Source of the DNA: Chitinophagaceae bacterium
GTDB lineage: Bacteria; Bacteroidota; Bacteroidia; Chitinophagales; Chitinophagaceae
Reading direction: 5' to 3'
Assembly (NCBI GenBank): GCA_947452965.1
Contig: CANGEW010000001.1
Span: forward strand, 124,001-188,000
Length of the DNA: 64,000 nucleotides
Numbering within the stretch: the first letter of the stretch is position 1; each line of letters opens with the position of its first letter. Positions 6,501 through 14,005 of this stretch are shown piece after piece. The translations under genes and the position numbers were made by a program. Below the pieces are notes generated by a model that was not told the origin of the DNA, did not search any database, and worked only from the letters and a program-made list of their open reading frames with translations.

Positions 6501-6995
6501 TTAATTCAATTTGATTTCTTCTGCTAATTGAGTTATATATGATTCTTGCTTTGCTTTATCAGACAACTCTCTTCTCAATATTTTTTCACTTACTTCCACA
6601 ACCATTTTACCTACTTGATTTTTGATGTCTGTAAGGGCTGCCATTTTTTGATGATGTATGGAAGCATTCGCATCGGCAATGATTTTAGCAGCTTGTGCTT
6701 TGGCATCTTCTTTAGCCTCTTGGATCATTTTGTCTTTTATCTCTTTAGCTTCTTTTAGCATGGTAGCTCTTTCTTCTCTTGCAGATTGTAATAAGGCTTC
6801 ATTTTCACTTTTCAATTGGGCCATTTCTTTCTTTACTTTTTCTGCAGAAGCAATTGCATCAGCAATATTAGTTTCACGCTCTTGTAAACCAGCAATGATT
6901 TGTTTCCAAGCAAACTTCTTCAAGATGAAGAATACAATCAAAAAAGCTAATAGAGTCCAAACAATTAATCCTAAATGAGGTAATAACAAATCCAT
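6501..6995 (-). CDS. atpF: F-type ATP synthase subunit b
   Basis: Single N-terminal TM segment, FAWKQIIAGLQERETNIADAIASAEK and long charged helix; position after atpE. Confidence 0.94.
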   Translation of the reverse strand: MDLLLPHLGLIVWTLLAFLIVFFILKKFAWKQIIAGLQERETNIADAIASAEKVKKEMAQLKSENEALLQSAREERATMLKEAKEIKDKMIQEAKEDAKAQAAKIIADANASIHHQKMAALTDIKNQVGKMVVEVSEKILRRELSDKAKQESYITQLAEEIKLN

Positions 6996-11184: not shown

Positions 11185-13458
11185 TTATTTTTCTTCCGTA
11201 TCATATCTATCTACTCTTTCGATACCCGGAAGAGCGAGTAACGCTTCTACTAGAGTATCTAATTGCTCCTTATCTTTCACAAAAACCTTTACATTCCCCT
11301 GGAAAATACCTTCATTTGCTTCTATTGTCATTGCAGAAATATTAACCTTTAATTCACCACTTATCAGATTAGTTATTTTGTGAATAACACCCACATCATC
11401 TAACCCAATAATTTTTAAACCGGTAAGGAAAGAGATTTCTTTATTTTTTGCCCATTTAGTTTTCACCACCCGATGTGCATGATTGGCTAATAATCTGGTG
11501 GCATTCGGACAATTAGTTCTATGTATTTTTAGTCCTTCACCGGTTGTGATAAATCCAAATACATCATCCCCTGGTATAGGTTTGCAGCAATTGGCCAATG
11601 TGTACATGATCTTGTCACTGCTTTCACCAAAAATAATGAGTTCGGTATCTTTTTTGGAAAGGGGTTTGTTATCCTGAAACTCTTGTTTTTCTTCTACCAG
11701 TTTGATTGGCTTGGGCGGTAAAAGTTTGTCACCATGAACTGTAAAATCTTTGAGTTCTTTTAAATCGATTTTTTTAATTGCAATTTCATATAACAAATCA
11801 AGCGAGCTGTTGATTTTGTAATAATTAGCTAGTTCTTCTAAATTTGATTGATTCAGTGCAGCATTGATGGCATTAAATTTTCTTTCAAGAATATCTCTTC
11901 CCTCTTCTGCAATTTTTCTTTTTTCTTCTTTTAATGAATCTTTAATTTTCGCTCTAGCTTTTTGGGTAACTACATAGTTTAACCATTCACCATTGGGCTT
12001 TTGCTTGGCACTAGTGATGATTTCAATCTGATCGCCACTTCTTAGCTTATAGCCTATTGGTACTAATTTATGATTTACTTTTGCTCCAATACATTTAGAG
12101 CCAACAGCCGTATGAACACTAAATGCGAAATCTAATGCCGTAGCACCAACCGGTAGCATTTTTATATCTCCTTTTGGAGTATACACATATATTTCTTCTG
12201 CGAGAAAAGAAGTCTTGAAATCTTGTAAAAAATCAAGTGAATTGGTTTCCTGATTAGAAAGAGCATCTCTGATTTGATTAAACCATTGATCAAAGCGACT
12301 TTCATCGTCTTTGCCTTCTTTATATTTCCAATGCGCTGCCAAACCTTTTTCGGCAATTTCATTCATACGCTTAGTTCTAATTTGTACTTCCACCCATTTT
12401 CCCAATGGCCCCATCACAGTAGTGTGTAAAGCCTCGTATCCATTACTTTTCGGATTGCTTAACCAATCTCTCAATCGTTCGGGAGATGGATTGTATTCGT
12501 CCGTGATGATACTATATACTTTCCAGCAATCTTCTTTTTCTTTTTCGGGTGCAGAGTTAACAATGATTCTGATGGCAAACAAATCATACACCTCCTCAAA
12601 AGTGACGCCCTTTTTTTTGATTTTATTGGAAATAGAATGAATGCTTTTGGGACGTCCATAAATTTCAAAGTCGAGACCTGTTGCTTGAAGTTTTTCTTTT
12701 AATGGTCGGATAAAATCGTTGATATATCTGGCGCGTTCTCTTTTGGTTTCCTGCAATTTTTTTGCAATAAACTTGTATGTATCTGCCTCCATATACTTCA
12801 TGGAAAGATCTTCCATTTCAGTTTTGATATTGTACAAACCCATACGATGTGCCAATGGCGCATATACATAGATGGTTTCAGAGGCAATCTTCAACTGTTT
12901 TTCTCTCTTTACACTGTCCAATGTTCGCATATTGTGTAAACGATCGGCAAGCTTAATCAATATTACTCTTGGATCATCAGTAAGCGTAAGTAATATCTTC
13001 TTAAAGTTTTCTGCCTGTTGACTGGTATTGGCATCCATCACATTGGCGATCTTAGTTAGTCCGTCAACAATTCTAGCAATTTCCAAACCAAATTCTCTTT
13101 GAATGTCCTCTAGAGATATGTCAGTATCTTCAACAGTATCATGTAGTAATGCGCAGATAGTACTTCGAATGCCCAATCCTATTTCTTCAGCACAAATTTT
13201 AGCTACGGCTAATGGATGAAGGATGTAGGGTTCGCCACTTTTTCTGCGCATGGTTTTATGCGCTTCTGCAGCCATTTCAAAAGCTGTGCGAAGTAATTCT
13301 TTGTCGCCCGGTTTTACCTTTTCTTTTAACACCTTCAACAAGGATCTGTATTCTCTAACTATGGCTTTTTTTTCTTCTGTATCAGAGAGTGTATAGGGTG
13401 GTATGATATCTGTAGGTGGCATCTGATACGAATTTAGTTGAAATGCGTCAATGTTCAA
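11185..13458 (-). CDS. Bifunctional (p)ppGpp synthetase/hydrolase, RelA/SpoT family (HD, synthetase, TGS, ACT)
   Basis: HDTVEDTDIS (hydrolase HD), YGRPKSIHSISNKIKKKGV, TPKGDIKMLPVGATALDFAFSVHTAVG (TGS), C-terminal ACT region; TTG start at 13458 or ATG at 13422. Confidence 0.95.
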   Translation of the reverse strand: MNIDAFQLNSYQMPPTDIIPPYTLSDTEEKKAIVREYRSLLKVLKEKVKPGDKELLRTAFEMAAEAHKTMRRKSGEPYILHPLAVAKICAEEIGLGIRSTICALLHDTVEDTDISLEDIQREFGLEIARIVDGLTKIANVMDANTSQQAENFKKILLTLTDDPRVILIKLADRLHNMRTLDSVKREKQLKIASETIYVYAPLAHRMGLYNIKTEMEDLSMKYMEADTYKFIAKKLQETKRERARYINDFIRPLKEKLQATGLDFEIYGRPKSIHSISNKIKKKGVTFEEVYDLFAIRIIVNSAPEKEKEDCWKVYSIITDEYNPSPERLRDWLSNPKSNGYEALHTTVMGPLGKWVEVQIRTKRMNEIAEKGLAAHWKYKEGKDDESRFDQWFNQIRDALSNQETNSLDFLQDFKTSFLAEEIYVYTPKGDIKMLPVGATALDFAFSVHTAVGSKCIGAKVNHKLVPIGYKLRSGDQIEIITSAKQKPNGEWLNYVVTQKARAKIKDSLKEEKRKIAEEGRDILERKFNAINAALNQSNLEELANYYKINSSLDLLYEIAIKKIDLKELKDFTVHGDKLLPPKPIKLVEEKQEFQDNKPLSKKDTELIIFGESSDKIMYTLANCCKPIPGDDVFGFITTGEGLKIHRTNCPNATRLLANHAHRVVKTKWAKNKEISFLTGLKIIGLDDVGVIHKITNLISGELKVNISAMTIEANEGIFQGNVKVFVKDKEQLDTLVEALLALPGIERVDRYDTEEK

Positions 13459-13516: not shown

Positions 13517-13594
13517 GCCATTGCCGGTCTCATGACCGACAAAGAATTTCTGAGCATCCTGCACTGTTGTTGGTGAGAACACTAACAAAGGCCG
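13517..13594. repeat. 78-bp double-hairpin repeat, copy 1
   Basis: gccattgccggtctcatgaccgacaaa...ttgttggtgagaacactaacaaaggccg. Confidence 0.93.
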
Positions 13595-13636
13595 AAAAAT
13601 CATATCCCCAAATGATGATGGATTTTATTAGTCTCC

Positions 13637-13714
13637 GCCATTGTCGGTCTTATGACCGACAATGAATTTATGAGCATCCTACACTGTTGTTGGTGAGAAC
13701 ACTAACAAAGGCCG
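13637..13714. repeat. 78-bp double-hairpin repeat, copy 2 (11-bp-arm perfect hairpin at 13639-13664)
   Basis: CATTGTCGGTC-ttat-GACCGACAATG followed by TTGTTGGTG-agaa-CACTAACAA; 120 bp from copy 1. Confidence 0.95.
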
Positions 13715-13755
13715 AAAAATCATATCCTAAATGATGATGGATTTTATTAGTCTCC

Positions 13756-13833
13756 GCCATTGTCGGTCTTATGACCGACAATGAATTTATGAGCATCCTG
13801 CACTGTTGTTGGTGAGAACACCAACAAAGGCCG
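13756..13833. repeat. 78-bp double-hairpin repeat, copy 3 (second hairpin TTGTTGGTG-agaa-CACCAACAA perfect at 13806-13827)
   Basis: Same architecture; 119 bp from copy 2. Confidence 0.95.
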
Positions 13834-13859
13834 AGAAGTTCTCAAAACTTAACTTTTCT

Positions 13860-13937
13860 GCCTTTGTCAATCTCATGACCGACAAAGAATTTATGAGCAT
13901 CCTAAACTGTTGTTGGTGAGAACACCAACAAAGGCCG
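13860..13937. repeat. 78-bp double-hairpin repeat, copy 4 (diverged; ends GCCTTTGT...ACAAAGGC)
   Basis: Same architecture; 104 bp from copy 3; 8-bp complementary ends at 13860-13867 and 13928-13935. Confidence 0.92.
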
Positions 13938-13940
13938 AGA

Positions 13941-13982
13941 GGTTCAAAAGGTTAACTTTTGGAACATGTAACCTTTTCAACC
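13941..13982. repeat. Inverted repeat GGTTCAAAAGGTTA / TAACCTTTTCAACC (13 of 14 matching, 14-nt loop), downstream of FISUMP gene
   Basis: 13941-13954 vs 13969-13982. Confidence 0.75.
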
Positions 13983-14005
13983 TTTGAAACCTAACACCGA
14001 AGGTG

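Follow-up and report, generated by a model that had tools for sequence, protein, structure and literature searches.

Genes and repeat units at the locus

The window, i.e., the whole 64-kb stretch of DNA analyzed here, contains a FISUMP-domain gene and a relA/spoT-like gene, both on the minus strand, and the 547-bp gap from the FISUMP stop codon to relA holds an array of four ungapped 78-bp units, which were delimited by reading the sequence and by repeat computation (Table 1). Aligned over 78 bp without gaps, copies 1 to 4 show 3, 4, 2, and 5 mismatches to the unit consensus, and repeat computation gave start-to-start spacings of 120, 119, and 104 bp. Starts and length of the units had already been given in a first, sequence-only reading of this DNA, as had the lengths of the three spacers; the ungapped alignment and the sequence itself confirmed all of them.

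Table 1. Position of the array units, their spacers, and the neighboring and related genes. Window positions unless another locus is named.
Feature	Position	Strand	Length	Remarks
relA/spoT-like (p)ppGpp synthetase/hydrolase gene	11185..13458	-		downstream of array; identity read from sequence
Unit 1 (putative REPIN)	13517..13594		78 bp	hairpin 1 13521-13542, one broken pair; hairpin 2 13567-13588
Inter-unit spacer 1	13595..13636		42 bp	near copy of spacer 2
Unit 2 (putative REPIN)	13637..13714		78 bp	hairpin 1 13641-13662, 11-bp perfect arms with flank; hairpin 2 13687-13708
Inter-unit spacer 2	13715..13755		41 bp	near copy of spacer 1
Unit 3 (putative REPIN)	13756..13833		78 bp	best preserved; hairpin 1 13760-13781; hairpin 2 13806-13827, perfect
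Inter-unit spacer 3	13834..13859		26 bp	unlike spacers 1 and 2
Unit 4 (putative REPIN)	13860..13937		78 bp	hairpin 1 13864-13885, two broken pairs; hairpin 2 13910-13931, perfect
FISUMP-domain gene (contig C1)	14006..14911	-		stop codon adjoins array; PF09603 E 4e-41, TIGR02145 E 1.9e-23; 3' hairpins
FISUMP gene (contig C7)	L010:3149-4054			3' hairpins
FISUMP gene (contig C18)	L011:2131-2871			3' hairpins

Each 78-bp unit consists of two 22-bp hairpins in opposite orientation. When up to 3 mismatches were allowed, the pattern of hairpin 1 matched four times in the 64-kb window (0.01 matches expected) and that of hairpin 2 also four times (0.04 expected), all matches lying within the array, and all hairpin copies of the window are intergenic. 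Perfect 11-bp arms of hairpin 1, which the first reading had reported for copy 2, are present there and in copy 3 as well. The likeness of spacers 1 and 2 is a sign of tandem duplication of the unit together with its flank. By repeat computation, units 2 and 3 share 96% identity over a stretch of 112 nt that extends into their flank, and these common flanks indicate that local duplication took part.

Folding and decay of the units

Folds of the units as single-stranded DNA were compared with those of shuffled sequences, giving z values of -6.0 for copy 2, -8.1 for copy 3, and -4.1 for copy 4, but only -2.4 for copy 1. The broken pairs in hairpin 1 of copies 1 and 4 are uncompensated, and in copies 1 and 2 one arm of hairpin 2 carries a C-to-T change. 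The array of the window looks partly decayed.

Distribution of the hairpin in the genome and the genus

The source genome (G000) is a 2.3-Mb draft of 93 contigs that is 87% complete, with the window located on contig C1. Pattern and similarity searches of this genome detected the unit or the hairpin also on contigs C7, C18, C43, and C12, and weakly on C4, with ~18 hairpin places in total at up to 3 mismatches. The stems of hairpin 1 differ between the window (TTGTCGGTC) and C7 (CTGTTGGTC). At up to 2 mismatches, the hairpin is present in 26 of the 93 genomes of the genus; as a control, the hairpin pattern read backwards gave practically no matches in these 93 genomes. Two congeners are rich in hairpins, namely G112 with 51 matches on the forward and 61 on the reverse strand and G082 with 37 and 24, respectively, these counts exceeding the number of places because one place can match on both strands. 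The sequence-only reading had held that a unit occurring nowhere else would sink the family interpretation; with copies found by the consensus and motif searches on other contigs and in congeners, this interpretation stands.

Other arrangements of the hairpin were also observed. On contig C43 of the source genome (~6538-6663; L279), a small tandem array of three hairpins of the form TTATTGGTGATAACACCAA..CGGC with short spacing has a response-regulator gene on one side and a groEL-like gene on the other. In the congener G082 (C7, ~82514-82800; L258), single REPs form a regular tandem array with a 43-bp period, comprising six copies in the same orientation with 21 nt between hairpins.

RAYT genes of the source genome

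An intact RAYT open reading frame is present on contig C7 (28985-29500, equal to L010:1986-2501) inside a hairpin array, which spans ~L010:1560-3140 and surrounds the gene; several hairpin pairs flank it. The frame was found with a protein query, while a Pfam PF01797 search of the genome had missed it, and its product matches Pfam Y1_Tnp weakly. With the NCBIfam equivalog model REP_Tyr_transpos (NF047646), the protein scored 72.7 bits (E 2.7e-20; residues 11-152), i.e., less than the curated cut-off of 80, and by its sequence it is a relative under this cut-off. The HUH motif NHIH (within MSNHIHLIWQ) and the tyrosine motif YIHQNP are kept; IWQ follows the HUH motif and YQFWKR is found further on. 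A PDB sequence search with this protein gave no match. The array on C7 also includes a second, incomplete RAYT 3' end (C7:29595-29717, 88%), indicating that RAYT sequence and repeats were duplicated together there.

A second RAYT relative was found on contig C4 (119411-119899; L276). In this gene NRIH replaces the HUH motif, the NP motif is lost, and no hairpins were found around it; it looks dead and is probably a dead copy. The absence of a RAYT gene from the window, stated in the sequence-only reading, was correct, since the matches in the genome are on C7 and C4 and none is on C1, and looking elsewhere led to the gene on C7 amid hairpin pairs. Thereby, its guess of a REP/MITE-like element, similar to RAYT-mobilized REPs, gained support, as a cognate RAYT flanked by like hairpin pairs is present in the same genome.

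Hairpins at RAYT loci across Bacteroidota

In the genome collection, 178 stretches encoding RAYT relatives were found, of which the best 80 were kept; within the genus, 74 of 93 genomes have a RAYT relative. For the analysis of RAYT flanks, 98 non-redundant loci with enough flanking sequence were examined for hairpins with shared arms on both sides within 350 bp, and 365 windows from the same loci served as controls. Matched hairpins on both sides were present at 31 of the 98 RAYT loci and in 1 of the 365 control windows (Fisher p 5e-22), leaving 67 of the 98 loci with no matched pair by the shared-arm criterion. The stem TTGTTGGTG/CACCAACAA is common to RAYT loci of Mucilaginibacter (L043), Taibaiella (L048), and a Flavobacteriaceae MAG (L052), while in an Ignavibacteriota MAG (L062) the RAYT lies between TTGTTGGTC and TTGTTGGTG.

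The hairpin stem follows the RAYT phylogeny, i.e., stem and RAYT coevolve. In a RAYT tree of the 31 loci, one clade (support 100/100) has GGT-type stems in 13 of its 15 members and the other in none of its 16, and stem similarity correlates with that of the RAYT proteins (Mantel r 0.52, a value reached in none of 5000 permutations). The other clade (L073-L118) shows quite different matched hairpins, e.g. TTTGGGCGAATTTGCAATTCGCCCACA, and represents a second group of REP families.

Tag, loop, and pairing of the hairpins

In the hairpin nearest to the RAYT, the outward foot bore the motif [GC]CC-N in 24 of 30 cases and the inward foot in 4 of 30 (p 3e-7). Agreement of tag and loop was counted on hairpins of G000, G112, and G082 with a tag on one side only. 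For these, the CC-N tag was on the left in 43 of 43 hairpins with the loop TNNT and on the right in 46 of 46 with the loop ANNA, where the CC-N definition was chosen after part of the data had been seen and copies within an array are non-independent. The CC-N tag, usually GCC-N, is thus located 5' of the strand whose loop reads TNNT, and by this agreement of tag side and loop strand each REP is directional. The REPs occur as inverted pairs with the tags outward, with 24 nt between the hairpins in the window and 22-23 nt on C7; spacings of 19-26 nt were found for 12 of 14 pairs in G112, with a wider spread in G082. REPINs are arranged in this way, and each unit of the window is one of them. The sequence-only reading had taken the unit for a nested amplification of one palindrome, for which an inverted REP pair, with a tag outward on each REP, is the better description.

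As consensus on the recognized strand, we propose 5'-[C]GCC-N-TTGTYGGTS-TNNT-SACCRACAA. The conserved outward tag at the 5' foot is (C)GCC-N and not the guide GTAG (GT[AG]G). The latter defines the classical GTAG families and not subclass 2.6, reported in PMC6006769 to lack GTAG. By analogy with GTAG (PMC8266576), the (C)GCC tag would be a candidate guide of the enzyme. A wider proposal, which we consider evenly balanced between holding and failing, is that subclass 2.6 RAYTs of Bacteroidota use a recognition code unlike the characterized ones. In this code, which would be common to lineages from Chitinophagaceae and Flavobacteriaceae to Ignavibacteriota, the GTAG guide would be replaced by a (C)GCC guide separated from the foot by one base, together with a TNNT loop specific to one strand and the conserved stem TTGTTGGTG.

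Comparison with known systems

According to the main text of the 2018 description (PMC6006769), TnpA-REP subclass 2.6 is found mostly in Bacteroidetes, has the motifs NH[LIV]H, WQ, and YIH[QN]NP, and its genes have atypical secondary structures in their flanks, which recur at other places of the genome and lack GT[AG]G. The C7 RAYT appears to fit this subclass by its motifs NHIH and YIHQNP, its phylum, and the gene-flanking structures with copies elsewhere, also without GT[AG]G, although the Q of the WQ motif listed in the table of that paper may be K (WKR). Its main text gives no consensus; here, the REPs were found to have a stem in common and a (C)GCC-N tag, with polarity of the loop and arrangement as inverted doublets.

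In Pseudomonas fluorescens SBW25, tandem REPIN clusters with duplicated flanks are known, one beside each RAYT (PMC3116915). The array of the window resembles them in having an inverted REP doublet as unit and in forming a tandem cluster that includes flanking sequence. It differs by the tag, which is GCC-N instead of GTAG, by short perfect stems, by the spacing of 19-26 nt between hairpins, and by two ends that are different (GGTC and GGTG) in the source genome. The GTAG- and CGTC-tagged REP superfamilies are short palindromes that carry an unpaired tag at one end and form head-to-head dimers, and CGTC repeats were reported from Bacteroidetes without an associated transposase (PMC3733652). 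The present REPs share these three properties, but their tag is (C)GCC plus one base and, unlike CGTC repeats, they are associated with a transposase. With the subterminal hairpins of IS200/IS605 elements (PMC6006769, PMC8266576) they have in common single-stranded hairpins, a guide 5' of the foot, which here is a candidate, and related Y1 HUH enzymes; unlike these, the units of the window lack a transposase gene and do not form the pair of ends of a single element.

The array belongs to a kind of element that is already known, though poorly characterized in Bacteroidota, and new here are the subclass 2.6 REP consensus, its polarity, and the candidate guide tag. With a consensus that includes tag, loop polarity, and doublet spacing, the choice of strand and cut site by a non-GTAG RAYT becomes directly testable. 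The subclass 2.6 REP consensus would also account for unannotated intergenic hairpin arrays in Bacteroidota genomes.

Proposed origin of the array

We are confident that the array consists of four tandemly clustered REPINs of a Bacteroidota REP family, the cognate Y1/HUH RAYT of which (TnpA-REP subclass 2.6) is encoded on C7. In single-stranded DNA each REP would fold into a stem-loop, and the RAYT would bind the folded hairpin and, guided by the (C)GCC tag that lies 5' of the foot, cut and rejoin the strand, so that the inverted REP pair would be the unit copied or moved in trans. Presumably, a REPIN arrived in this manner between the FISUMP gene and relA, followed by local duplication of unit and flank to four copies, some of which would now be decaying. 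Recognition, cleavage, and mobilization of the REPs by the RAYT as well as this order of events are what we infer from the combined observations, and the array probably has no essential host function. Counted against mobilization by the RAYT were the low copy number in this genome, the RAYT score below 80 bits, the difference between the stems of window and C7, the unmatched RAYT loci, and the lack of an empty site described below.

Neighboring genes and alternative explanations

Of the 93 genomes of the genus, 89 have a conserved relA/spoT-like gene. At 29 other relA loci of the genus neither FISUMP nor such hairpins were found upstream of relA, as far as the contigs reach, and the arrangement of FISUMP gene, array, and relA is therefore particular to the source lineage. 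No clean empty site at relA was found among these 29 congeneric loci, some of whose contigs end early, because gene order is too different in congeners.

It is improbable in our view that the array is a regulatory RNA or 3'-UTR module, i.e., that hairpins in the FISUMP transcript or the relA leader, acting in stability, attenuation, or termination as is possible for BIMEs, were multiplied and retained for this role. The position in a gap between two genes of the same strand would agree with such a role, as would REP hairpins shortly after the stop codon of some FISUMP genes, but the congener hairpins lie mostly away from FISUMP and the relA loci of the 29 congeners are free of them. The RNA fold of the array is far better than those of shuffles (z -9.5); this structure, however, follows from the DNA palindromes anyway, and the stem changes in copies 1, 2, and 4 are uncompensated. 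A terminator scan gave no terminator-like site, and an Rfam search gave two matches, both to eukaryotic snoRNA families and far below gathering scores. With no Rfam family near threshold, the structured-RNA module, which the sequence-only reading had offered as an alternative, received no positive support, although the array may have a secondary effect at the RNA level.

REP hairpins were found 10, 77, and 130 bp after the stop codon in three of the seven FISUMP genes of the source genome, which is more than expected from random placing by a test chosen after the data had been seen. One hairpin array in G111 is likewise located directly 3' of a FISUMP-containing gene, and on C7 the RAYT adjoins one FISUMP gene. 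These cases could suggest that FISUMP genes are cargo, with the hairpins as recombination or transposition ends at which the genes are moved or swapped with the help of the RAYT. We consider this very unlikely, since the hairpins are on one side of the genes only, FISUMP was found at 0 of 80 other RAYT loci (best 80 of 178 relatives), and G082 has many hairpins and no FISUMP gene. Furthermore, no hairpin listed for G112 (a partial list), G011, G030, G005, G103, and G107 lies beside their FISUMP genes. Adjacency of hairpins to FISUMP genes applies to the three genes here and the one in G111 but mostly fails in congeners, and the FISUMP neighbor of the array is probably incidental.

Hardly any credence can be given to a diversity-generating retroelement with FISUMP as the variable protein and the hairpin as the structure required after the variable repeat. 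The hairpins follow the 3' end of a gene whose family is multi-copy and encodes surface proteins, and the FISUMP paralogs differ at their C-terminal ends, which would be in line with it. However, the search of the genome, which is 87% complete, gave a retron St85-like enzyme as the sole reverse transcriptase, and in many genomes the hairpins flank RAYTs and not reverse transcriptases. That the array is nothing more than a chance palindrome, belonging to no family and duplicated locally in tandem, is next to impossible. Local duplication would explain the common flanks of copies 2 and 3, but the copies dispersed here and in congeners refute it as a full account, and RAYT flanking and tag/loop polarity oppose it as well.

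Integron attC sites have the core GTTRRRY; they were dropped as a candidate because GTTGGTG is unlike this core.

The retron St85-type reverse transcriptase gene is located on contig C13 of the source genome (16140-16676; L040), with small ORFs nearby. Just past the stop codon, the FISUMP genes on C1 and C18 (and C20) have TTCAAAGGTT-like repeats (window 13940-13983; L011 ~2899-2927), which may mark related 3' ends of FISUMP genes.
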